Positions 19,805 through 50,194 of a stretch of 52,683 nt of DNA are shown here, in pieces. The position numbers were made by a program, and so were the translations under genes. Location: positions 1 to 52,683 of IMG/VR virus record IMGVR_UViG_3300033153_001326; one strand, written 5' to 3'. The number at the start of each line of letters is the position of its first letter. The stretch's first letter is position 1. The DNA comes from a virus. The notes beneath the pieces are model-generated. The model did not search any database. It saw nothing but the letters and a program-made list of their open reading frames with translations, and was not told the DNA's origin.

Positions 19805-20064
19805 CAAATGATCCCAAGAAAGATTTTGTAAAGAACTTGAAGGGGACACATCTATCAGAATCAGATCACGATGAGATTGTGTTAGAAATAACTAGTACAA
19901 TCAGAATAATTTCTGGTATCTGCTACATGGATTTGCCTGATGATGAAAAAGTCAAGCGAATACTAGAAATGATAGACTATGCGAACGGCATATTAAAAGA
20001 TGCATCGTATGCTGAACGATATGCTCGCGCATTAGAAAACTATGAAAAGGCAAATAATGACTGA
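19801..20064 (+). CDS. Hypothetical protein, 87 aa
   Basis: Begins DPKKDFVKNLKGTHLSE, again the FVxxLKG motif at the N-terminus, as in the partial gene at the left window edge. The remainder is a helical, acidic domain (DDEKVKRILEMIDYANGILK). It overlaps the preceding gene by 4 bases and gp47 by 8 bases. Function unknown. Confidence 0.65.
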   Translation: MTNDPKKDFVKNLKGTHLSESDHDEIVLEITSTIRIISGICYMDLPDDEKVKRILEMIDYANGILKDASYAERYARALENYEKANND

Positions 20065-21073
20065 CAATAATTTGTTTAAGAATGTCGCTTGTTTCACGGA
20101 CATTCACTTTGGGTTAAAACATAACAGTCGCCAACACAATCAAGATTGTTTAGACTTTCTAGATTGGTTTATTGCGGAAGCGAAATTACGGAATTCGGAA
20201 ACGTGCATCATGCTGGGTGACTGGCATCATCATCGCGCAACCATTAACGTATCGACGCTAAACTACAGTATGACAGCCCTCGCTAAACTCAGTGAAGCAT
20301 TCGACAATATGTATTTCATTGTAGGCAATCACGATCTTTACTATAAAGAGAAGCGTGAGCTTAACTCAATCCCTATGGCTGAGTTGTATTCAAACATACA
20401 CCTCATTGATGAAATTACCACAGAGAGTGACGTTGCTATAGTTCCTTGGTTGGTTGGTAACGAGTGGACAAAGGTAGCCCAGATAGAATCCAAGTATATG
20501 TTTGGTCACTTCGAATTCCCTCGTTTCAAAATGAATGCTAGTGTAGAAATGCCAGATCATGGACAGCTACAAGCAGAAGACTTCCAACACCAAGACTATA
20601 TCTTTTCTGGTCACTTCCATAAGCGACAACAGAAAGGCATCATTCATTATATCGGAAATCCATTTGGTCACAATTTTGCTGACATAGATGATTCTGATAG
20701 AGGGGCAATGTTTCTTGAATGGGATGGTGAACCAGAGTATATGAATTGGGAAGGCCCAAGATATATTAAGATGAGTCTGTCTGCCTTGTTAGAAGATCCT
20801 GACAAGCATCTTTTACCAAAGACATTCGCTAAGATTGAACTGGACGTTGATCTATCTTACGAAGATGCAAACTTCATACGTGAAACACTATCAGAGAATT
20901 ATGAAATACGAGACCTCAATTTGATTCCTCGTAATGAATCAGAACACGAAGCAGAAGAACATGGTGATATTAAATTTGTGACAGTCGATCAGATTGTCAT
21001 AGATAGTATCAAAACGATGGATTCAGAATCATTTGATATAGGAAAACTTCAGCAGATATATAACGACTTATGA
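20057..21073 (+). CDS. 47: Recombination endonuclease subunit gp47 (Mre11/SbcD-like)
   Basis: Nuclease subunit of the gp46-gp47 complex that resects DNA ends for recombination-dependent replication and host DNA degradation. The calcineurin-type metallophosphoesterase motifs are all visible: FTDIHFG (Asp15, His17), GDWHHH (Asp55), GNHD (Asn91-His92-Asp93) and SGHFHKRQ. The length of 338 aa equals T4 gp47 (339 aa). I choose ATG 20057, which overlaps the previous stop, rather than an upstream codon. It overlaps gp46 by 4 bases. Confidence 0.94.
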   Translation: MTDNNLFKNVACFTDIHFGLKHNSRQHNQDCLDFLDWFIAEAKLRNSETCIMLGDWHHHRATINVSTLNYSMTALAKLSEAFDNMYFIVGNHDLYYKEKRELNSIPMAELYSNIHLIDEITTESDVAIVPWLVGNEWTKVAQIESKYMFGHFEFPRFKMNASVEMPDHGQLQAEDFQHQDYIFSGHFHKRQQKGIIHYIGNPFGHNFADIDDSDRGAMFLEWDGEPEYMNWEGPRYIKMSLSALLEDPDKHLLPKTFAKIELDVDLSYEDANFIRETLSENYEIRDLNLIPRNESEHEAEEHGDIKFVTVDQIVIDSIKTMDSESFDIGKLQQIYNDL

Positions 21074-22836
21074 TACGCATAAAAAATATAACAATAAAAA
21101 ACTTTATGAGTGTAGGCAATGTCACACAAAGCATAAGCTTTGATGATAAAGACCTCGTTCTTGTGTTGGGTGAGAATCTAGATCAAGGTGGGCTTGACGC
21201 ACGTAATGGTGTGGGTAAGAGTACCATCGTCAATGCATTGTCGTATGCATTGTATGGCACAGCACTCACGAAGATCAAAGTGGATAACCTAGTCAACAAG
21301 ACGAATGGTAAGAACATGGTTGTTACTCTTGAGTTTGAAAAAAACGGAACTGAATATCTAATCGAACGTGGGCGCAAGCCAGTCAAGTTTGCATTCATGG
21401 TGGCGGGAACAGAAGCTAGTGTTGATGAGGCGGACGAAGCGCAGGGCGACAATCGCGTGACACAGCGCGAGCTTGAGCGCGAGCTTGGCTTGAGTCATAC
21501 CATGTTCAAGAATATTGTGGCTCTCAACACATACAGTGAGCCATTCCTTGCTATGAAAGCAGCAGAGCAACGTGAACTTATTGAGCAGTTGCTTGGTATC
21601 ACGCAGCTTTCAGAGAAAGCAGAGATACTTAAAGAACAGTTAAAGAATACGAAAGATAAAATAAAAGAGGAAGAGTTTCGTGTCGAAGCTATCAAGGAAG
21701 CGAACAGTCGAATTGAAAAGAACATCACTAGTCTCGTAACAAAATCGGACAAGTGGGTTGAAGATCAAGAGACATTGGTAACTGATGCAGCAGAAGCTAT
21801 CATTGTGCTTGAGGGTATCAATGTTGAGGAAGAAATAGAAAAGCACAAAGACCTCGTTATCATTAAAGAAGATCAAGCAAAGTTTGATAAGTTAGAGGCC
21901 GAGCGTAAACAGTATGTACGCAAGATAGCTTCTCGAACACTATCAAGGAACAAGGATGATGAAAAACTGGCGACGTTAGAACATCAGAAGTGCTATACTT
22001 GCGATCAAGAACTACAGGGTGATACACATAAGAAACTCGTAGACGAAGCAGAGACAAGCAGAAAAGAATTTACAGAAATCATTGAGACAACAGAAAAACT
22101 TCTTGAAGAAAAGGAAGCAGAGTTGGCTGACATTGAAGTAGAGACAACACCAGACACATTCTATGATGACATAGAAGATGTGTACAACCACAGATCAAGC
22201 TTGGAGAGTCTACAGACTACACTGGAAGTAGAGTCTGTAAGAGAGAACCTCTTCATCGACCAGATAGAAAGCTTAAAGAAAACAGGATTGCAAACCATAG
22301 ACTACACTTCGATGAATGATCTGGTGTCGTTGCGCGATCATCAAGACTTCTTGGTACGATTGCTCACAAGCAAAGACAGTTTCATTCGTAAGAAGATCAT
22401 CAATCAAAATCTCGCATACTTGAATGCACGACTAGAATATTATCTTGATCGTGTTGGTTTACCACACAAAATCAAGTTTATGTCTGACCTCACAGTAGAG
22501 ATTCGTGAGCATGGTCGTGACTTAGACTTCGATAACCTAAGTCGTGGTGAGCGTACACGTTTGATACTTGGTCTTAGCTGGTCATTCAGAGATGTATATG
22601 AAAGCTTGAATACACCTATCAGTCTGCTATTCATTGATGAGCTTATTGATAATGGGCTTGATCCAGCGGGCGTAGAGAGCGCACTGTCTGTATTGAAACA
22701 GATGGCGCGAGAAGCAAACAGAAACATATTCCTTATCAGTCACAGAGATGAACTGGTTGGTCGAGTTGGTTCTGTACTTAAAGTTATTAAAGAGTCGGGC
22801 TTCACTTCATTTGAAAATGAGGTAGACTTAGAATGA
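21070..22836 (+). CDS. 46: Recombination endonuclease ATPase gp46 (Rad50/SbcC-like)
   Basis: ABC-type ATPase partner of gp47. Walker A NGVGKST at about residue 47; Q-loop near VALNTYSEPF; central coiled coil interrupted by a zinc hook CYTC (Cys308, Cys311); ABC signature NLSRGERTRLIL at about 490; Walker B LLFIDELID at about 520; and an H-loop ISHRDE. The length of 588 aa compares with 560 in T4. ATGA overlap with gp47 and with the next gene indicates one operon. Confidence 0.95.
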   Translation: MIRIKNITIKNFMSVGNVTQSISFDDKDLVLVLGENLDQGGLDARNGVGKSTIVNALSYALYGTALTKIKVDNLVNKTNGKNMVVTLEFEKNGTEYLIERGRKPVKFAFMVAGTEASVDEADEAQGDNRVTQRELERELGLSHTMFKNIVALNTYSEPFLAMKAAEQRELIEQLLGITQLSEKAEILKEQLKNTKDKIKEEEFRVEAIKEANSRIEKNITSLVTKSDKWVEDQETLVTDAAEAIIVLEGINVEEEIEKHKDLVIIKEDQAKFDKLEAERKQYVRKIASRTLSRNKDDEKLATLEHQKCYTCDQELQGDTHKKLVDEAETSRKEFTEIIETTEKLLEEKEAELADIEVETTPDTFYDDIEDVYNHRSSLESLQTTLEVESVRENLFIDQIESLKKTGLQTIDYTSMNDLVSLRDHQDFLVRLLTSKDSFIRKKIINQNLAYLNARLEYYLDRVGLPHKIKFMSDLTVEIREHGRDLDFDNLSRGERTRLILGLSWSFRDVYESLNTPISLLFIDELIDNGLDPAGVESALSVLKQMAREANRNIFLISHRDELVGRVGSVLKVIKESGFTSFENEVDLE

Positions 22837-23231
22837 AACGAAGAAAGACACAACAAACATTAAGAGCAGAGAGTCGTGGGCTACGGAAAGTACAAAACGA
22901 GCAAAATGTGTGGACGTTCATTCAAGGCGATGATGTTCTGCATCAGTGGGGAACATTCTCGGGCAGTACAACATTTGCTGTTAATGATGCACTTTCAGTT
23001 GGTGACATCATTACTATCAATGCATCTGATACAACATCATGTGCATTTGGTCTTGACTTGGCATACAAGAATATTAACCCAAAGCGCGTACATCCTGCTA
23101 GAAGAAGAAAAGTTATACAAGATCAAAAAGACATGATGGACGATCAAATGGTAGTTGTATCTGGTGGTACCTCATTAACTTGTACAAAGATAGACAATGT
23201 AACGTGGGTAGTCAACGGAGTCGTATCTTAA
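22833..23231 (+). CDS. Hypothetical protein, 132 aa
   Basis: Unrecognised. It has basic ends (KRRKTQQTLRAESRG; PARRRKVIQDQKD) and a beta-rich middle with several Thr/Ser (WTFIQGDDVLHQWGTFSGS, SVGDIITINASDTTS). Position between gp46 and purF and ATGA/TAATG overlaps on both sides make it a firm gene of the operon. A small nucleic-acid-binding beta protein is possible; nothing more can be said. Confidence 0.7.
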   Translation: MKRRKTQQTLRAESRGLRKVQNEQNVWTFIQGDDVLHQWGTFSGSTTFAVNDALSVGDIITINASDTTSCAFGLDLAYKNINPKRVHPARRRKVIQDQKDMMDDQMVVVSGGTSLTCTKIDNVTWVVNGVVS

Positions 23232-24685
23232 TGTGTGGAGTCGTTGGAATCTTTGGAAGGCAACCAGTGAATCAAGCACTATATGATTCATTGACTATGT
23301 TGCAACACAGAGGACAAGACGCCGCTGGTATTGTTACGTGCGATAGTAGTGGACTTCACACAAGAAAGGGTACGGGGCTAGTACGTGACGTATTCCATAC
23401 AAGACACATGAGACGGTTAAAAGGCAACGTTGGCATAGGCCATGTACGTTACCCAACAGCAGGCGCGAAGACACCCAAAGAAACGCAACCTCTGTACGTC
23501 AATAGTCCGTATGGAATATGTCTAGCCCACAATGGTAATCTCGTCAACTATGATGAGTTAGCTGAGATGCTTTCAAGCACAGACTTGAGACATTTGAATA
23601 CACATTCAGACAGCGAAGTACTACTAAACGTATTCGCACATGAATTACAGAAAGGCAATCACAATGAAATGATGGCAGAGCGTATATTCACAGCTATTAC
23701 TGAGCTACATAAACGTGTGAGTGGTGGCTACGCAGTTGTCTCGTTGATTGCAAATAACGGAATCGTAGCGTTTCGTGATCCACATGGCATTCGTCCATTG
23801 GTTCTTGGGCGCAGAGAAACTACACATGGGCTAGAATATATAATAGCCAGTGAAAGTGTGGCACTTGATGTGCTAGACTTTGAGCGAGTGCGCGACGTAG
23901 AGCCTGGTGAATGCATATACATAGACAACAAAGGTAGACTGCATTCAAAGATGTGCGCGAAGAAGACACAGCTATCGCCATGCATATTCGAGTATGTCTA
24001 CCTAGCTAGACCAGACTCCATCATTGATGGACTATCAGTGTACAAGTCTCGTCTACGCATTGGTGAACAGTTAGGTGAGAAGATTCTAGAAGAATGGCCT
24101 GACCATGATATAGATGTAGTAATTCCTATTCCCGATACGAGTCGTGTGTCTGCTGTGCAAGTAGCACACAGACTTGGACTAAAGTTGCGCGATGGGTTTG
24201 TAAAGAATAGATATGTTCCTCGCACGTTTATTATGCCTGGTCAAGAACTCCGAGAGAAGTCTGTGAAGCAAAAGCTAAACACGATTGATCTAGAGTTCGC
24301 TGGTAAAAATGTGTTACTCGTTGACGATAGTATCGTGCGAGGAACTACTTCACGCGAAATCATAAAAATAGCTAGACAAGCGGGCGCAAATATGGTATAC
24401 TTTGCAGTAGCAGCACCACCAGTTAGATACCAAAATGTATATGGTATCAACATACCATCATCAGATGAGCTAATCGCACATGATTGCACAGAAGAGGAAG
24501 TAGAAGAATTAATTGGTGCAGACAAGTTGATCTATCTTGACTTGCCTTCACTGATACAAGCAGTACAATACGAAGGCGTAAGCATAAACAAGTTTGATAC
24601 GTCATGCTTCTCTGGTGAATATGTCACTGGTGATGTAACAGAAGAATACTTAAAACAACTCGCAGACAAGAGAGAGGAAAAATGA
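23231..24685 (+). CDS. purF: Amidophosphoribosyltransferase PurF
   Basis: Catalyses glutamine + PRPP to phosphoribosylamine, the first committed step of purine synthesis. Met1 is followed directly by the nucleophile Cys2 (MCGVVGIFG), which fixes the start at 23231. The N-terminal Ntn glutaminase domain continues with LQHRGQDAAG, RYPTAG and NGNL. The C-terminal phosphoribosyltransferase domain has the PRPP loop LLVDDSIVRGTTS at about residue 361. At 484 aa it is full length (E. coli 505 aa) with no missing motif. It overlaps the glutamine synthetase gene by 4 bases. This is a phage-borne metabolic gene that could raise purine supply during DNA replication. Confidence 0.95.
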   Translation: MCGVVGIFGRQPVNQALYDSLTMLQHRGQDAAGIVTCDSSGLHTRKGTGLVRDVFHTRHMRRLKGNVGIGHVRYPTAGAKTPKETQPLYVNSPYGICLAHNGNLVNYDELAEMLSSTDLRHLNTHSDSEVLLNVFAHELQKGNHNEMMAERIFTAITELHKRVSGGYAVVSLIANNGIVAFRDPHGIRPLVLGRRETTHGLEYIIASESVALDVLDFERVRDVEPGECIYIDNKGRLHSKMCAKKTQLSPCIFEYVYLARPDSIIDGLSVYKSRLRIGEQLGEKILEEWPDHDIDVVIPIPDTSRVSAVQVAHRLGLKLRDGFVKNRYVPRTFIMPGQELREKSVKQKLNTIDLEFAGKNVLLVDDSIVRGTTSREIIKIARQAGANMVYFAVAAPPVRYQNVYGINIPSSDELIAHDCTEEEVEELIGADKLIYLDLPSLIQAVQYEGVSINKFDTSCFSGEYVTGDVTEEYLKQLADKREEK

Positions 24686-25707
24686 AAGTAACGAAATTGA
24701 GATACCTTTGGCTAGATGCTAATGGACACATACGAAACAAACTGAAGATCGTCAAGGGCGGGTTCGTACATGCACTTAGCGATATAGAACAGTGGAGCTA
24801 TGATGGTTCATCAACTGGACAAGCAGTGACAGGTGATTCAGATTTGTTCCTCAATCCAGTAAAAACATACCGTTCAACGAACCACGATGAAACTCTTGTG
24901 CTGTGTTCTGTCACAGACTTTGGTGACAACCCCGTGAAATCAGAAAAGCGATACCAACTTGCAGAACTAGCAGACAAGTACGAAACTAACGGATGGCTGT
25001 TTGGTATAGAACAGGAATATGCGTTGATGGATGATACTGGTACTAGATTATATCGTTGGCCTGATGCAGCATTCCCTGGTGAGCAAGGCCCATACTATTG
25101 TGGTGTTGGTTATGATGAGGCGTATGGTGCAGATATTATAGATGAACACACTGACACTTGTATAGATTATGGTCTTGCTATTTGTGGAACTAATGCAGAA
25201 GTGATGCCGTCACAATGGGAATTCCAGATTGGTGCAGAAGACCCGTTGACTGTTGCTGATGATCTTATAGTTGCGCGCTATTTATTGTATCGTGTTGCTG
25301 CACACTATGCTGCAACTGCAACACTACACCCTAAGCCAGTTAAAGGCAACTGGAATGGTAGTGGTGCGCACACTAACTTCTCAACAGCAGCAATGATGAA
25401 TGAAAAAACTGGTGCAAGAGCAATTGAACTCGCAGTTGTTAATCTAGAAAAGACACATGATGCATGTATCGAGCTATATGGCGAAGACATTCATCACAGA
25501 ATGACAGGTGAACTTGAAACTTCTGACATTAGTACGTTCACATATGGTGACAGCGACAGAGCCTGCAGTATTCGTAAGCCAATTGGTGTGCGTAGAGATG
25601 GTTATGGCTATCTAGAAGATCGCCGCCCATGCGCAAACATCAACCCATACACTGTATGTGCAGCAATCATACAAAGTGTCGAAGAAGGAGTTTGCACAGT
25701 AAAATAA
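24682..25707 (+). CDS. glnA: Glutamine synthetase, type II (eukaryote-like GSII)
   Basis: ATP-dependent ligation of ammonia to glutamate. The 341-aa length and motifs are those of GSII rather than the 450-470 aa GSI: WSYDGSSTGQA (residues 38-48, ammonium-site Asp), GIEQEYAL, PSQWEFQIG, NWNGSGAHTNFST (about 223-235), and a C-terminal SDRACSIRKP followed by GYLEDRRPCANINPY. All key elements look intact. It follows purF with an ATGA overlap, so the two are translated together; the product glutamine is PurF's nitrogen donor. Type II enzymes are common in eukaryotes and some bacteria (rhizobia, actinomycetes), so acquisition from such a host is possible. Confidence 0.93.
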   Translation: MKVTKLRYLWLDANGHIRNKLKIVKGGFVHALSDIEQWSYDGSSTGQAVTGDSDLFLNPVKTYRSTNHDETLVLCSVTDFGDNPVKSEKRYQLAELADKYETNGWLFGIEQEYALMDDTGTRLYRWPDAAFPGEQGPYYCGVGYDEAYGADIIDEHTDTCIDYGLAICGTNAEVMPSQWEFQIGAEDPLTVADDLIVARYLLYRVAAHYAATATLHPKPVKGNWNGSGAHTNFSTAAMMNEKTGARAIELAVVNLEKTHDACIELYGEDIHHRMTGELETSDISTFTYGDSDRACSIRKPIGVRRDGYGYLEDRRPCANINPYTVCAAIIQSVEEGVCTVK

Positions 25708-28214: not shown

Positions 28215-28805
28215 TTACTTTCCCCAAGGTCTGCGGTTATAGATGCGAAGTACTCTCTTGAGCCAGTCCTCTTCGTACTGGTCTACTATGTCAGCAGTCA
28301 TGCATAGACGTACACCAACGATAGCGTTACCAATAGTATCTACTGAGATAACACCAGCAAATTTGCGGAAGTGCATCGTAGCTAGTGCTGAGATACGTAG
28401 CTCAATGTCACCACGTAGCTCGTCTAGTACTACCTTCTCACCATCAACTACGTTGTGGTGCTTTGCCCATTTGATTGAGCCTTTCATAATAGCTATGTCA
28501 GTAGTCAGTACATCACCAGCGGGTTCTTTAATATAGATACTACCTGCTTCGTGACCATATTTGTTTAGTGGTTGATTTCCTGTTGCCACGCCACTGAATG
28601 GAAACTCTCGTAGTCGATAAGTCAAATCTCCCATTTCGAACGGTGCCCATTCGATATTCTGGAAATCGAGTAGACGAGAGGTAGAGTACACCCAATTGTA
28701 CTTAGGGTATAGCTTGTATGCTACTTCGTCGTTTAAAGGTATGTCGATGTTTGTCTCGACGTCCTCGAATATTGTGTCTTTTGTGTCTATGCCTAAAAAT
28801 GTCAT
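28215..28805 (-). CDS. Hypothetical protein, 196 aa
   Basis: AAGG precedes the ATG by about 8 bases. It is a mostly beta protein with conserved-looking segments (LYPKYNWVYSTSRLLDFQ, FSGVATGNQPLNKYGHEAGS) and a helical end (DIVDQYEEDWLKRVLRIYNR). It lies directly after gp26 and its frameshift extension, in the late operon. A tail-assembly role is possible by position only. Confidence 0.68.
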   Translation of the reverse strand: MTFLGIDTKDTIFEDVETNIDIPLNDEVAYKLYPKYNWVYSTSRLLDFQNIEWAPFEMGDLTYRLREFPFSGVATGNQPLNKYGHEAGSIYIKEPAGDVLTTDIAIMKGSIKWAKHHNVVDGEKVVLDELRGDIELRISALATMHFRKFAGVISVDTIGNAIVGVRLCMTADIVDQYEEDWLKRVLRIYNRRPWGK

Positions 28806-28820
28806 TATGTTTTACCTTGG

Positions 28821-29059
28821 TTACAATTGTTCCTTGCCTGATATTGCCGCTGCTTCGCGTTTCTTAATGTCTGTCATAAATTCTAGTATGTTACCGCGTT
28901 GTTTTGGACTCATTCCCCATGCTTCAGTATATGAAACTCCATTCATGTGATAACAAGTGAGTATAATTTCTTGTTCAATCTGTTCAGAAGCATCTTTTAA
29001 GGTTTCTAACTGTGTTTGTATCTCCTCTGGTGTCGCTTGCGTGAGAAACCTTAAGAAAA
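28821..29059 (-). CDS. 51: gp51-like extension reached only by -1 frameshift from gp26
   Basis: This open frame has no ATG, GTG or TTG until residue 38, inside the part that looks conserved (ILTCYHMNGVSYTEAWGMS). In the -1 frame it follows exactly from the slippery heptamer AAATTTT at the end of gp26, adding 78 residues to give a 359-aa fusion. The helix plus CYxM-NG-VSYTEAW block resembles the short gp51-type or T-type tail-assembly-chaperone domain. The layout is the same as lambda G/GT. The gene call rests on the frame and motif; the frameshift itself is not demonstrated. Confidence 0.7.
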
Positions 29060-29899
29060 ATTTACAGGATTAAATTCAATCCTGGCTTCCCAAGTGTGTT
29101 CGCACTTAGTACACGTTGCTGTCAGCGTCTTTTCAATGCCAACCTTGTTTATCTCTGCAATCTTTTCTTCGATCTTATCAGAAGTTGCTTTACCAATGTT
29201 CATCAACCAATCACCAATATGATTTTTATTTGTGATCTCAACTAGCTCACCTTCATCATCTGTGAATAATACCTTCTGTACAGCTTCGTGAACTATTTCA
29301 AAATTAAACTTTGATACCTGTTCAAACACCCTAGATAGAATCTTCATTCTCTGCTCATCTGATAAATCAGGATTGATTATTGCTTGTTCTAATTTTGTAT
29401 TCTGAAATGCTGCTTTCTGTTGTTTCACTAGTCCATCAAATCTACCAGGGGTTATGTACACAGTCAAGTTATTATCAAGTATTACTTCATAACTGTCTTC
29501 TAATGTTTCTGTATGATTCAATAGAGTATCAAGATTTAATGTAAATGTATTTTCAGTTCCACATTTAGGACAATCTGCATCCATTGACGCATTATCACCA
29601 TATGATGCAACACGCACGGCGATCATCAATACGTCAATATCGCAGCTTAGTAGTTTCTTTGGGTTAGACACATCAGGAACGCAACTCTTAATTACTTTTG
29701 TTACAGCTTCACCACTTAATAGTGCATCTGGATTCTGTAATGTGATTTCATCTTGTGCTGTCATTGGAAATATAGAAATTTCTCCGTCATCATTCAGAGT
29801 TACTGTATTTTCCTCATAATATCTGCCTCTAGATGGCAACTTAACAGATGTTGTTGCTGTTCTGTAAAATTTAGTTAACGGATTTTCAGTTTTGCTCAT
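29051..29899 (-). CDS. 26: gp26-like baseplate hub / tail assembly protein, 282 aa
   Basis: Signature regions: LPSRGRYYEENTVTL, ISIFPMTAQDEITLQNPDAL, then KSCVPDVSNPKKLLSCDIDV and AVRVASYGDNASM, all typical of the gp26 family of T4-like phages. Two CxxC pairs (Cys110/Cys113 and Cys263/Cys266) suggest a zinc ribbon. The gene ends in a -1 slippery site, so a minority of product may carry the gp51-like extension. It is divergent from the tape measure gene, as tail chaperones often adjoin it. A GATAAATA late promoter lies at 29977-29984. Confidence 0.85.
   Translation of the reverse strand: MSKTENPLTKFYRTATTSVKLPSRGRYYEENTVTLNDDGEISIFPMTAQDEITLQNPDALLSGEAVTKVIKSCVPDVSNPKKLLSCDIDVLMIAVRVASYGDNASMDADCPKCGTENTFTLNLDTLLNHTETLEDSYEVILDNNLTVYITPGRFDGLVKQQKAAFQNTKLEQAIINPDLSDEQRMKILSRVFEQVSKFNFEIVHEAVQKVLFTDDEGELVEITNKNHIGDWLMNIGKATSDKIEEKIAEINKVGIEKTLTATCTKCEHTWEARIEFNPVNFS
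29057..29063 (-). other. Programmed -1 frameshift site A AAT TTT
   Basis: On the minus strand, codons GTA AAT TTT TCT TAA end gp26. A-AAT-TTT fits the canonical X-XXY-YYZ rule (X=A, Y=T, Z=T). Slipping back one base leads into TTC TTA AGG and an open frame of 78 codons. No strong downstream pseudoknot was recognised by eye. Confidence 0.7.
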
Positions 29900-30012: not shown

Positions 30013-32085
30013 GTGGCAGATCAAGATGTAAACATAATTGGCTTTGATGGTGCAACCCCTCCACTGTGGGCTACAGAGCAAACGCTAGAAGCAATGCTCG
30101 AAAAGATCGAGGATCTTGTAAAGATAAGTGAAGGTCAGCGACGAGAGTTGAAAAGCGGCATTCGGGGCGGCGGTAAGGGTGGTAAAGGTGGAAGCAGTAG
30201 TAAAGAAGAAAAGGACGCTGCTAATCTTCTTGGAAAACTATCAAAAGGATTGAAAAGTTCAGCAATGGGTGCTGCTGAATCTGCTGCAGGGTTTGACAAG
30301 CTACCTGGCCCTCTAGCTAAGTTTGGCAAAGAACTAAAGAATACTTCAGGCGCTACTAAGATGGCAGCACTTGGTATCGGTATGATAGGCAACCAGATTG
30401 GCAAGGCCATTTCCACAGTTAAAGAATCAGTGAGTACATTGAGGGATCTATCTGATAGCGGTATACGATTAGAAGGTGGAATATTAGAAATTCAAAAAGG
30501 CCTTGCAGAAACGGGCATGACGCTTTCCCAATTTGGTGAAACAGCAGCACAATATGCCCAAATAATAAATCAAAAAGGCTGGTCATCAATTTCCAATCTA
30601 GCTAGTGTGGTAAACAAATCTGCTGGTGGGTTTGAGAAATGGGGTCTAACAACAGCAGAAGGTATTGACATTACTGCTGAATACTTAGATCAACAGCGGC
30701 GTGTTGGTGTGTTCCAAGCAATGGATCAAGTCAAACAGTCAAGTCTGATTGCTGAAACGATGGATAGACTTACTGCGTACTCCAAAGTCTTGAATGTATC
30801 ACGTAAAGACATGATGGATTCACGTAAAGAAATGAAGACAAGTCGTGACGTACAAGCGCAGTTGGCACAACTGGATCAAGCATCCAGAATGAAAGCGAAC
30901 CAAGGGCTGGATCATCTATCTGATGCTGTATCATCACTTGGTCCTGATTTTGGTTTTGTAGGTGACGCACTAACTGACTTTGCAGGAACCAGAATTAATC
31001 AGCTTTCAGAAACATTCAAGACTATGGCAGAAGGTGGTGGCGCAGACGCAGCACTAGCATTGGCAGAATTTGCAGATTCAGCTATGGAAGGCGGCAAAGT
31101 CAACCAAGAAACAATTAAACAGTGGGTTTTGACAAATGCTGCAAATGACAATTTTATGCAGAACTTGATTAATGCTGGCGGCCCAGCCAAAGAATTCGCT
31201 ACTAATATGTTACTTGCTCGCAAAGCAACAGAAGAAGCTACTGCGCAAGAAGCACGACTACGTGAGCGTGGTGGTAAAGATTTTCAAGAATCAGTAGATA
31301 AGAATGTACAAGAACTTACTGGATTTGAAGATATGTTGCAAAAAGTTCAAGCATCATTTGAGTACAAGAGAATGGAAACATTCTTAGACTTGATGGGTGG
31401 TACTGGATCAGAAGCAGTAAGACTGGCAACTGAAGGGTTGAAAGCATTACATGAAAAGATTATGGCATTCAACAATGATGGTCAAGTAGGAAAATTTCGG
31501 GCAATGGTTATTGATAACCCAATACTAGCAGCAGGCGCGCTAGTAACTGCATTTGGAATACTAAAAGCTGCGAGTTGGGCTACTTCAGCAGCAATGGTAA
31601 AAATGGGCCCGTCAATGATGAAACTTGCTAGTGGCATTGGTAAACTTGGTGCAGTTGGTGCAGCAGCAGCGGCTGGTTATGCAATCGGCACTGGTTTAAA
31701 TGCGTTACCAACGCTATTTGGTGCTGATTCAATAAGTACAAATATTGGCGATCTAATAGATCGTGCGAAAGGTGTTCACCCAGGTGGTAGAAATGATCCA
31801 ATGGCGATGGCTAACACAGCAGAAGGCCGAATGGCAGCACTTGATCCAGCACAACGAGAAGTACTCAAGTTGGCTAGAGAGAGACAAGCAGCCGCTAGAC
31901 AAAAGGAAACTGCTGCAAAAACATCAGAGATGGTAAGCACACCACAAGCAGTAACACCAGCCGAACCATCTATGTCTCCTGCAGATGTAGCCAAGTTAGA
32001 TCAAGCAGCCCAAACAAATTACTACCTATCTGAGCTACTTAAAGTCAATAAGAAAACAGGAAGGGCACTTACTGGCGAAATGTAA
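30013..32085 (+). CDS. Tape measure-like tail protein, 690 aa
   Basis: The tape measure sets tail length and passes through the tail tube (gp29 in T4, 590 aa). Features: acidic start, a Gly/Lys-rich linker at about 48-62, long helical stretches rich in Ala, Gln and Glu (MKANQGLDHLSDAVSSLG, KATEEATAQEARLRERGG), and two hydrophobic segments at about 497-525 and 545-565 (AVGAAAAAGYAIGTGLNALP). The start is a GTG with GGGG upstream. It lies beside gp26 (tail chaperone), the usual context for this gene. Assignment is by composition and position, not by strong motifs. Confidence 0.75.
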   Translation: MADQDVNIIGFDGATPPLWATEQTLEAMLEKIEDLVKISEGQRRELKSGIRGGGKGGKGGSSSKEEKDAANLLGKLSKGLKSSAMGAAESAAGFDKLPGPLAKFGKELKNTSGATKMAALGIGMIGNQIGKAISTVKESVSTLRDLSDSGIRLEGGILEIQKGLAETGMTLSQFGETAAQYAQIINQKGWSSISNLASVVNKSAGGFEKWGLTTAEGIDITAEYLDQQRRVGVFQAMDQVKQSSLIAETMDRLTAYSKVLNVSRKDMMDSRKEMKTSRDVQAQLAQLDQASRMKANQGLDHLSDAVSSLGPDFGFVGDALTDFAGTRINQLSETFKTMAEGGGADAALALAEFADSAMEGGKVNQETIKQWVLTNAANDNFMQNLINAGGPAKEFATNMLLARKATEEATAQEARLRERGGKDFQESVDKNVQELTGFEDMLQKVQASFEYKRMETFLDLMGGTGSEAVRLATEGLKALHEKIMAFNNDGQVGKFRAMVIDNPILAAGALVTAFGILKAASWATSAAMVKMGPSMMKLASGIGKLGAVGAAAAAGYAIGTGLNALPTLFGADSISTNIGDLIDRAKGVHPGGRNDPMAMANTAEGRMAALDPAQREVLKLARERQAAARQKETAAKTSEMVSTPQAVTPAEPSMSPADVAKLDQAAQTNYYLSELLKVNKKTGRALTGEM

Positions 32086-32154: not shown

Positions 32155-32352
32155 ATGTGGACAAAACATTTTAAGCCAGTCAATTCAGTACTGCCAAAGC
32201 AAGTAAACGCAGCAAGCTCAGGCTCAGCATCATCGTTGAGTAAGTTTTCTAGTTGGTTACCTGAATTTTATCAAGGCCCACCAAACAGACTCATGCGTTA
32301 TCAACAATATGAGCAGATGGACTTAGACAACAATATGAGCAGATGGACTTAG
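32155..32352 (+). CDS. 20: Portal protein gp20, N-terminal fragment
   Basis: Codes for MWTKHFKPVNSVLP... and the typical LPEFYQGPPNRLMRYQQYEQ of gp20, then stops after 65 residues because a 26-base segment is exactly repeated at 32302-32353. Without the second copy the frame runs straight into the next fragment as YEQMDLDHEVAAALD. A truncated portal would not work, so either the duplication is an assembly artefact or translation resumes at the ATG 32343. A late promoter at 32119 precedes it. Confidence 0.75.
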   Translation: MWTKHFKPVNSVLPKQVNAASSGSASSLSKFSSWLPEFYQGPPNRLMRYQQYEQMDLDNNMSRWT

Positions 32353-32353
32353 A
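32302..32353. repeat. 26-bp exact tandem duplication in portal gene
   Basis: Copy 1 at 32302-32327 and copy 2 at 32328-32353 are identical and adjacent. 26 is not a multiple of 3, so it shifts the frame of gp20. Deleting one copy restores a 569-codon open frame. Confidence 0.95.
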
Positions 32354-33890
32354 TCATGAGGTAGCAGCAGCACTAGATACTATTGCCGACTTCTCTACTC
32401 ACTTAGACGAAACAACAAAGACTCCATTCAATATCAAATTCAATGATGATCCAAGTGAATCAGAGAAAGAGATTCTAACTCGCGCACTAAAGCAATGGTC
32501 TAATCTTAACGAATTCCCTAAGCGTATGTTCCGCTTGTTCCGCTCTACTCTAATGTATGGCGATCAGTTTATGATTCGTGATCCAGAGACATTCAAACTG
32601 TATTGGGTTGATCCATCAACAGTTGACAAAGTACTGGTAAACGAGAGTGAAGGAAAGAAGATCGAAGCATACTTCATTCGTGAGCTAGACTTGAACTTGC
32701 AACAGAACGTAGCTACCAATACCAGTAAGAAAACTGAAATGGGCTACAACGCACAAGACACAATCTTCCCTAATGCACCATTCACTGGTCAAGCTAACTA
32801 CTCGACAGGTAGTGCATCAGCAGCAATCAGTACTCAAGGACAAGCATACTCAAGTGGTGAAGCATTTCCAGTAGATGCTGAACACGTAGTACAGCTATCA
32901 ATGACTGAAGGAATGAACAACTCATGGCCTTTTGGTATCAGTATTCTTGAAGCTATTTTCAAAGTATACAAGCAGAAAGAACTACTAGAAGATAGTATTC
33001 TTATCTATCGTGTGCATCGTGCGCCAGAACGTCGTGTGTTCTTTATCGACGTAGGCTCAATGCCACCAAACAAAGCAGCACAGTATCTAGAGCGCATTCG
33101 CTATGAAGTACAGCAGAAGCGTATCCCATCACGAACTGGTGGTGGTGAGAGCATTGCTGACTCAGCATACAATCCGATGTCAATGCTTGAAGATTACTTT
33201 TTTGCACAGACAGCAGATGGTCGTGGCTCTAAAGTAGAGACACTTCCAGGTGGTGAGAATCTTGGTCAGATTGATGATCTAAAATACTTCAACAACAAAA
33301 TGCTACGTGGTCTTGGTGTACCAAGCAGTTATCTACCAACTGGCCCTGATGATGGTTCAGCCACATTCAATGATGGTCGTGTAGGCACAGCATTCATTCA
33401 AGAGTTTAGATTCTCTCGCGTATGTCAACGTCACCAACGTTTAATATGCCCAACGTTTGATGAAGAATTCAAGCTATTCTTGAAGTTTAGAGGGTTCACC
33501 ATTGATAGCTCTATCTTCTCACTAGAACTGAACGAGCCACAGAACTTCTCTGAGTATCGTCAGATCGAAATTGATGCAGCATATGCTAATCTATTCAACA
33601 GTGTCAAAGATAATCCATACATCAGCAAGCGTTTCGCACTGAAACGTTACTTGGGTTGGAATGAAGATGACATTCTGGAGAACGAGAAGATGTGGAGAGC
33701 AGAACAAGCGTATCAATCAGCAACAGATGAAGGCGGTGGTGCTGGTGCAGACTTGCGCTCCGTTGGTGTTGGTGGAGAGGGCTTTGACTTTGGCGACGAA
33801 GAAGACTTCGAAGGCGAAGAAGGTATGGATGAAGTACCACCAGAAGGTGAAGACATCCCAGGTGGTGAGATTGATCTAGAGGCTGAGTAA
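32343..33890 (+). CDS. 20: Portal protein gp20, main fragment, 515 aa
   Basis: The portal dodecamer at the head vertex joins head and tail and serves as packaging channel. Conserved gp20 regions: ADFSTHLDETTKTPFNI, MFRLFRSTLMYGDQFMI, QLSMTEGMNNSWPFGISILE, YRVHRAPERRVFFIDVGSMP, NKMLRGLGVPSSYLP and the aspartate-rich tail. It is in frame with the N-terminal piece once one copy of the 26-bp repeat is removed, giving 569 aa (T4 524 aa). The ATG 32343 overlaps the stop of the first piece by 10 bases, so reinitiation is possible but unlikely to make a working portal. Confidence 0.9.
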   Translation: MDLDHEVAAALDTIADFSTHLDETTKTPFNIKFNDDPSESEKEILTRALKQWSNLNEFPKRMFRLFRSTLMYGDQFMIRDPETFKLYWVDPSTVDKVLVNESEGKKIEAYFIRELDLNLQQNVATNTSKKTEMGYNAQDTIFPNAPFTGQANYSTGSASAAISTQGQAYSSGEAFPVDAEHVVQLSMTEGMNNSWPFGISILEAIFKVYKQKELLEDSILIYRVHRAPERRVFFIDVGSMPPNKAAQYLERIRYEVQQKRIPSRTGGGESIADSAYNPMSMLEDYFFAQTADGRGSKVETLPGGENLGQIDDLKYFNNKMLRGLGVPSSYLPTGPDDGSATFNDGRVGTAFIQEFRFSRVCQRHQRLICPTFDEEFKLFLKFRGFTIDSSIFSLELNEPQNFSEYRQIEIDAAYANLFNSVKDNPYISKRFALKRYLGWNEDDILENEKMWRAEQAYQSATDEGGGAGADLRSVGVGGEGFDFGDEEDFEGEEGMDEVPPEGEDIPGGEIDLEAE

Positions 33891-48147: not shown

Positions 48148-49554
48148 TTAGTTGATAGAAATGCGCCAGTAGCCAGGATTATATGTTGCTAGATACGTGT
48201 ATACCCATTGATCGTCAGCAAATCTGTAATGCTGCGCGTCTGTAAGATTCACTACATACTGTGATACACTAATGGTAGATGCGTCAAAGCTAACGAACCA
48301 GTTAGTACCATTGTATTCAATGATGTCGTTCTCATACGCCACAATATCTCCCCACGGATTCAATCCATTACCTGTTTGGGCAATCAATTGCTCACCATCG
48401 TAGTCTTGATTGTTAGTCAGAAGTAGATAGCGTTGACCAACAGCCGCCGCTGGTAATGTACCACCTGGAAAGCTAGTGATTGGATTGATTATGTCATTGA
48501 CGGGCCCACTACCAATGGTGGTTGGCAATGTATCAGCATCGACAACAAACGTTGCAATGTTTTGTTCGGTGGCACTGACTTCTAATGAACCAAGTATATC
48601 ACCAAATGTTTCTTCAATATCATCTTCAGTCTTGAGTGTCATTACCGTGGTTTCAGGATCAATTTTGCCATACGTAGCAAACAAGTCTTCCCATGCTAAT
48701 GTAGTATCGGTTTGACCATACTCGTTCAATAGTTCAACTCTGCTAGTTGTAGAAGTGACAGGACTTACGTCGATACGATAGTTCCCTGGAGATATAATGA
48801 CTTGATCTAGTTCATCAAACACGCTACCAAGTGGATCGAAGATGCGATCTGTGTCTATGTTACTTACGTCAGTGTTATAGATATTCGTAACGATCTGTTC
48901 GATAATGGACTGACGCTTAACTTTGGCTGGTGGACTAATCCATGCAGTCATTTTGAATGTGAATGATGAGAAGTCATTAGCAATGTCTGTGCCCGCTGGC
49001 ACACCACGATTAGAGTAGTTCATATCAGTCATTTCAATCTCAGTGATTGACCCCCAATCCAACGGATTGTCATTTGTTTGAAGTTGAATTCCTGGATTGA
49101 ATATTGGAATGATCTGTTCCCATAGCTGTAGCTTATCTGTTGTGTTTGTTGTCCATAAGTCAAGTGCCATAGTTAAGTTGATTGGTACTGGCATGTGTCT
49201 CTCGACAGTATAGCGATTGCCCATTGTGTTTTCGTACAGGCCTGTTTGACCGTTGTATGTACGTTCAATTGCGCGAACTGGATTTACGTTAGTAGGATCT
49301 TGGCGACGATCATTCGCTATTTCTACTGCACGAATATATCCACTGAACATTGGTGCAGCGATAGAAGTATTCTGATCGTTGTTGCGTAGAATCTGCGCTA
49401 CCATTCTGCTCATGTCTCCATAAACAATAGGCACACGCTTTTGAGCTACCACACCATTTTCATCTGGTGCTAGTTCTATGCTGAAATCAGAGAAGATACG
49501 TAGAAACTGTAGTATGTATCGCCTGATCTGTTCGTCGTAAAAGAATGTTGACAT
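48148..49554 (-). CDS. 15: Tail sheath terminator/stabiliser gp15-like, 468 aa
   Basis: T4 gp15 caps the tail and joins it to the neck. The N-terminus STFFYDEQIRRYILQFLRIF followed by RVPIVYGDMSRMVAQIL and the later MPVPINLTMALDLWTTNTTD, WEQIIPIFNPGIQLQTND and FTFKMTAWISPPAKVK are typical of the gp15 family. It is longer than T4 gp15 (272 aa), with an added C-terminal beta domain ending in DDQWVYTYLATYNPGYW. ATG 49554 is used; it follows the previous stop directly. Confidence 0.82.
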   Translation of the reverse strand: MSTFFYDEQIRRYILQFLRIFSDFSIELAPDENGVVAQKRVPIVYGDMSRMVAQILRNNDQNTSIAAPMFSGYIRAVEIANDRRQDPTNVNPVRAIERTYNGQTGLYENTMGNRYTVERHMPVPINLTMALDLWTTNTTDKLQLWEQIIPIFNPGIQLQTNDNPLDWGSITEIEMTDMNYSNRGVPAGTDIANDFSSFTFKMTAWISPPAKVKRQSIIEQIVTNIYNTDVSNIDTDRIFDPLGSVFDELDQVIISPGNYRIDVSPVTSTTSRVELLNEYGQTDTTLAWEDLFATYGKIDPETTVMTLKTEDDIEETFGDILGSLEVSATEQNIATFVVDADTLPTTIGSGPVNDIINPITSFPGGTLPAAAVGQRYLLLTNNQDYDGEQLIAQTGNGLNPWGDIVAYENDIIEYNGTNWFVSFDASTISVSQYVVNLTDAQHYRFADDQWVYTYLATYNPGYWRISIN

Positions 49555-49555
49555 A

Positions 49556-50194
49556 TTAAAGTACACTAGCTCCTGGCATAGGGTTAAAGATACGAATTCC
49601 TGTCAGTGTGATTTGAGAAATATCTACATCGTTGCCGTGTGAGTTAATAATAAATACTCCACCGTTTGCAGCAAAGTCTCCACCGATAAACAATGGAATA
49701 ATAAAGTTGAATGCTTGCGGATCACCAGTAGCTTTTGCAAAGTTTGGTGAGTCAGTATAGATAATGTTACTTGCTGTCCCACCACCAGCAGGAGCAATTG
49801 GATCACTACCAACGTCAAGTTTTAAATCAAGATGGGGTGCCGTTCCACCTGTGAACTCACCAAACATTGATAGTCGAAGAACACCTGCACCATTAAGAAA
49901 AGGAGGAAAAAGTCTATCGTTTGCCTGATCCCATATTCCTGCAAAGCCAGGTGGATAACGCAATTCTTCTGCTGGATTAGAATTAATTGTAAGTTGTTGT
50001 GGAACACCATCTGCTAGTGTTGTAGCACCTGTTCCGTCGTCAAAGACGAACTCCCAACCTCCAGAAGTTGCAATCCAATCTGGAACACTAGTTACAAAGT
50101 CGCGTATGTCCTGTGCTGTAATAGATCCTGCCGCTTGATTGTCAGGAAAAATATTATTTTTTAAATCTGATTCTGTTCTTTTTGTATCTGCCAT
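49556..50194 (-). CDS. Virion structural protein, 212 aa
   Basis: The N-terminus (RTESDLKNNIFPDNQAAGSI, AQDIRDFVTSVPDW) is a short fibre-type helix motif often placed at the start of phage collar or fibre proteins. The rest is a single beta-sandwich-like domain. It lies between gp14 and gp15 and might be a neck or collar component. No firm family. Confidence 0.68.
   Translation of the reverse strand: MADTKRTESDLKNNIFPDNQAAGSITAQDIRDFVTSVPDWIATSGGWEFVFDDGTGATTLADGVPQQLTINSNPAEELRYPPGFAGIWDQANDRLFPPFLNGAGVLRLSMFGEFTGGTAPHLDLKLDVGSDPIAPAGGGTASNIIYTDSPNFAKATGDPQAFNFIIPLFIGGDFAANGGVFIINSHGNDVDISQITLTGIRIFNPMPGASVL

Follow-up and report, generated by a model that had tools for sequence, protein, structure and literature searches.

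A probable frameshifted tail-assembly chaperone locus, with its slip site one codon further upstream, in an uncultivated T4-related myovirus

In the window, which is a complete IMG/VR record (52,683 bases), the gp26-like gene and the -1 frame that overlaps its end very probably encode the chaperones for tail assembly in a T4-related myovirus, namely a short form, TAC-N, and a -1-frameshifted long form, TAC-NC, of the lambda G/GT type. Frameshifting in the TAC genes of T4-like phages was published in 2022, and the locus is therefore a new example of a phenomenon already known rather than a new phenomenon; its particular feature is a relocated slip site. Sequence comparison establishes how this site is laid out, that slip site and -1 frame are conserved, and that the fused product is homologous to T4 gp51.

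Table 1. Coordinates of the chaperone locus and of other features of the window.
Feature	Position	Strand	Remarks
gp47/gp46-like recombination pair	20042-22836	plus	Metallophos PF00149, AAA_23 PF13476
PurF-like gene	23180-24685	plus	Glutamine amidotransferase and phosphoribosyltransferase domains
Short glutamine synthetase	24682-25707	plus	PF00120/PF03951, PHROG 21628; adjoins the PurF-like gene
196-aa ORF	28215-28805	minus	Directly downstream of the extension
-1 frame extension (putative TAC-C domain)	28821-29057	minus	78 codons plus stop; aligned with 18 relatives
Slippery heptamer A_AAT_TTT	29057-29063	minus	3 nt upstream of the gp26 stop codon
gp26-like gene, putative short tail-assembly chaperone (TAC-N)	29051-29899	minus	282 aa; PF12322, PHROG 150
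Probable tape-measure protein gene	30013-32085	plus	690 aa; adjoins gp26, divergent from it
T4-type portal gp20	32343-33890	plus	PF07230, E 7.7e-104; syntenic landmark
T4 gp15-like tail sheath stabiliser	48148-49566	minus	PF16724, E 2.5e-28

Results

The product of the gp26-like gene matches the Pfam family T4_baseplate (E 2.9e-21, 76.6 bits against a cut-off of 24.5) and the PHROG family of the baseplate hub (E 3.5e-28), and it carries two CxxC pairs (C110/C113 and C263/C266), all four cysteines of which are invariant in an alignment of 12 sequences. The gene closes with the codons CCT GTA AAT TTT TCT TAA, and the short form ends in NPVNFS. The initial annotation had placed a slippery heptamer, A_AAT_TTT, within these last codons; the position proved exact, and the phase of the heptamer is the correct one for -1 slippage. 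From the slip, the -1 frame runs for 78 codons to a TAA at 28821 and holds no ATG, GTG or TTG in its first 37 codons, while reading through the site yields a fusion of 359 aa with the junction NPVNF/FLRF; the reading frames confirm the open frame, its lack of early start codons and the fusion length, all of which had been noted at the outset.

Relative to the extension of the related locus L001, that of the window shows 29, 23 and 47 differences at codon positions 1, 2 and 3, with a dN of 0.49 and a dN/dS of about 0.16, where dS (about 3) is saturated. From this ratio, and from the preponderance of third-position differences, we conclude that purifying selection acts on the extension. A search of IMG/VR for the extension on its own found none. 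With regard to a stimulatory RNA structure, the region downstream of the site folds no better than shuffled sequences in either the window or L001 (z of -0.5 and +0.5, respectively). A perfect 11-bp inverted repeat, TTAAGGTTTCT ... AGAAACCTTAA (28997-29054, minus strand), begins 2 nt past the slip site; since it is weak by energy and missing in L001, it is probably no conserved stimulator.

A tblastn search with the fusion matched 66 phage records, mostly of giant T4-like phages, and many of these match as two pieces, one for gp26 and one for the extension. The initial annotation had proposed that related loci be read for the slip site and the -1 frame. In the first comparison set, which comprises 18 gp26 homologues (two IMG/VR contigs and 16 giant T4-like phage loci), every member has an in-phase X_XXY_YYZ heptamer near the end of gp26, 3-33 nt upstream of its stop, and a -1 extension with the alignable domain. 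The heptamer is T_TTT_TTC in 15 of these, T_TTT_TTT in two (CM1 and XacN1) and A_AAT_TTT in L001. The same arrangement is found further afield, in the cyanophages S-PM2 and P-SSM2, the pelagiphage HTVC008M, KVP40, phiM12 and phiW-14, as well as in those further IMG/VR contigs that reach the end of gp26. All 23 representatives have the T-wobble and TTT codons that build T_TTT_TT[CT], with T in every case where C would be synonymous; multiplying the probabilities of these codons, as given by the codon usage of each genome, yields about 2e-10, which is an overstatement because the phages are related. The window gp26 found no match in bacterial and archaeal genomes.

The slip sites of the window and L001 lie one codon upstream of the usual site of their relatives, which consists of the last base of the preceding codon followed by TTT TT[C/T]. 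The fused product of both nevertheless keeps an FF motif, the second F being read from TTC in the -1 frame; as a consequence of the upstream position, FF is kept in the fusion and lost from the short form. In a third locus, L053, gp26 ends in CAA AAT TTT TTC GTC TAA, where A_AAT_TTT and T_TTT_TTC overlap and are both in phase, and this locus is possibly an intermediate between the two types of site. On balance we favour the interpretation that, in the clade of the window and L001, T_TTT_TT[CT] was replaced by the upstream A_AAT_TTT, with FF retained in the fusion and given up in the short form. Were this so, the target of selection would be the fused product, together with the proportion in which the two forms are made, and not one particular heptamer.

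The 690-aa protein encoded next to gp26 is homologous to the neighbours of gp26 in L001 (E 1e-89), MIJ3 (E 8e-11) and 121Q (E 2e-7), and its gene occupies the same position in relatives, between the portal gene and gp26. It has no match in Pfam; the RaK2 protein at this position is annotated as similar to tail tape measure protein. Synteny, length and the RaK2 annotation make it the probable tape-measure gene. The initial annotation had likewise counted a neighbouring tape-measure gene as part of a lambda-like layout, and this part of the claim stands as probable, although the gene is transcribed divergently from gp26, unlike in lambda. The gp15-like gene of the window is further evidence for a contractile tail of the T4 type.

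The initial annotation had also taken gp26 and gp51 of T4-type phages to be the two halves of a single frameshifted chaperone. Individual T4 sequences gave matches too weak to settle the relationship, and family profiles were therefore used in their place. T4 gp26 matches PF12322 over its full extent (positions 1-219 of 219), and so does T4 gp51. The cyanophage fusions align with the T4 gp51 family from end to end (hhalign 99.5%, E 7e-23), and the window-type fusions align with the cyanophage fusions in both the N and the C domain (hhalign 99.2%, E 1.1e-19). A direct comparison of the window-type fusions with the T4 gp51 profile gives a weak match (57%), and the homology between the window fusion and gp51 is thus carried by the cyanophage intermediates. 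The full-length PF12322 match of gp51 and the end-to-end alignment of its family with the cyanophage fusions show, on these profile comparisons, that T4 gp51 has the N domain in full as well as the C-domain and corresponds to the fusion as a whole (TAC-NC), and gp26 to the short form (TAC-N). The assignment of gp51 to a C-terminal half alone is contradicted by the same two observations.

Genes 26 and 51 are reportedly the TAC-N and TAC-NC genes of T4. Like the short form and the fusion of the window, T4 gp26 consists of the N domain and T4 gp51 of the N domain plus the C-domain; T4 differs in that each form has a gene of its own, the two genes being oriented divergently, and in that there is no slip site. 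The T4 gp26 gene ends in GAG TTC TTT GAG TTA CTA TAA and has no heptamer. T4 itself has the separate gp51 gene, with its own start and no heptamer, that the initial annotation had regarded as contrary to a frameshifted chaperone; this is a lineage-specific alternative, and it leaves the site of the window unrefuted.

Discussion

In lambda, the G/GT region yields a short chaperone when translation terminates normally and, by -1 slippage, a smaller amount of a long form, and the tape-measure gene is adjacent. The window locus is similar in its two-form layout, in having its -1 site close to where the short gene ends and in the probable tape-measure gene next to it, whereas it differs in that the lambda tape-measure gene lies downstream on the same strand and the probable one of the window is divergent. 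We know of no sequence similarity between lambda gpG/gpGT and the putative window chaperones. The lambda-like layout suggested by the initial annotation is supported by the slip site, the -1 frame and the aligned domain in relatives. By analogy with lambda, most ribosomes would terminate at the gp26 TAA and release TAC-N, while a minority would slip by -1 on A_AAT_TTT and read the further codons to give TAC-NC. TAC-N would then coat the tape-measure protein, while tail-tube subunits would be recruited by the C-domain of TAC-NC, as proposed from gpG and gpGT, the outcome being a tail of the right length. We infer the slippage, its efficiency and hence the ratio of the forms, and the chaperone function from this analogy.

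An alternative reading is that gp26 is a structural subunit of the baseplate hub, with the extension as a rare variant, rather than a chaperone of the tape-measure protein. PF12322 and PHROG 150 have traditionally been annotated as a baseplate protein or hub, which agrees with such a role, but the production of two forms by a -1 slip beside a tape-measure gene is a hallmark of TACs, and the TAC genes of T4-like phages have been identified (Vladimirov et al., 2022, as cited in PMC10885494 and PMC12846349); we therefore consider a hub subunit unlikely. An AlphaFold model of the window gp26, built from 4 sequences, has a pLDDT of 72.7, and Foldseek returned no significant match to it; in VIA-align the HK97 tail-assembly chaperone 2ob9_A ranks 24 against the model (Z 5.9, 94 of its 107 residues, rmsd 4.9), which is within background. 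Sequence searches for relatives of solved structure yielded none for gp51 and chance-level matches only for the gp26 profile.

It is also conceivable that the heptamer is incidental and that the extension forms a small gene in its own right, reached by reinitiation or through its own start codon. Annotators call small ORFs here in several relatives, some of them from an ATG that overlaps or just follows the gp26 stop, and such an ATG is present in 121Q, Kaldavass, KVP40, P-SSM2 and S-PM2, so that reinitiation is possible in those phages. However, the earliest start codon of the window extension is codon 38, which lies inside the conserved block and is preceded by no Shine-Dalgarno-like sequence, and the extension of Pseudomonas phage MIJ3 contains no ATG, GTG or TTG at all. 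If the extension began where it is annotated to begin in SCTP-2, CBB, GAP32, Munch and XaC1, the conserved beginning of the domain would be lost, and an in-phase heptamer is present in every relative read as far as the end of gp26. Together these observations make a separate gene very improbable. Chance, the remaining account, has in its favour that poly-A/T heptamers are frequent in A+T-rich DNA such as that of this gene, and that, of the 172 ORFs with 60 aa or more on the two strands of the window, 8 have an in-phase heptamer within their last 15 codons, but it is extremely improbable and already refuted by the comparative data, as only gp26 (1/172) combines the heptamer with a -1 frame that stays open for 60 codons or more, the slip site and C-domain are conserved in distant phages, and purifying selection acts on the extension.

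The frameshifted chaperone remains our preferred reading, and it places the window among loci described before. The initial annotation knew of no such description for T4-like phages; on this point it is superseded by Vladimirov, Gautam and Davidson (Virology 2022, 566:9-15), who identified the TAC genes of these phages according to PMC12846349 and PMC10885494. The first of these papers credits them with polyT frameshift signals in T4-like TAC-N genes, and the second with T4-like phages bearing separate short and fused copies. As far as these accounts go, the window shares with the published loci a gp26-family TAC-N, a -1 TAC-NC and a slip site of the polyT type; it differs in its A_AAT_TTT, one codon further upstream, and in belonging to an uncultivated lineage related to giant T4-like phages. 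The TAC locus of Vandenendeviridae and Andersonviridae, as presented in PMC12846349, has the same two-form logic and a conserved polyT slip motif, in other phage families and with the motif GTTTTT. Our comparison, which sampled giant phages, cyanophages, a pelagiphage, KVP40 and a rhizobial phage, supports the view that frameshifted two-form chaperones are the usual arrangement among these T4-like phages, with the two genes of T4 as the exception.

In the Vandenendeviridae and Andersonviridae, the C-domain is misannotated as a separate hypothetical protein (PMC12846349), and we see comparable problems in the public records of the phages compared here. The extension is unannotated in those of MIJ3 and RaK2, and in those of SCTP-2 and GAP32 it begins at an internal ATG, so that the beginning of the conserved domain is lost. 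Many public records thus lack the C-domain or give it a wrong start, which a simple rule can correct.

Other genes in the window

For the 196-aa ORF that follows the extension, Pfam gave no match and PHROG none that was convincing; it equals T4 gp53 in length, a likeness of length alone. The PurF-like and glutamine synthetase genes are probably phage-borne genes of nitrogen and purine metabolism, and an ORF with a PurF-like start is also present in L001. A gp46-like gene, as in the recombination pair of the window, likewise lies a few kb from gp26 in giant T4-like relatives.
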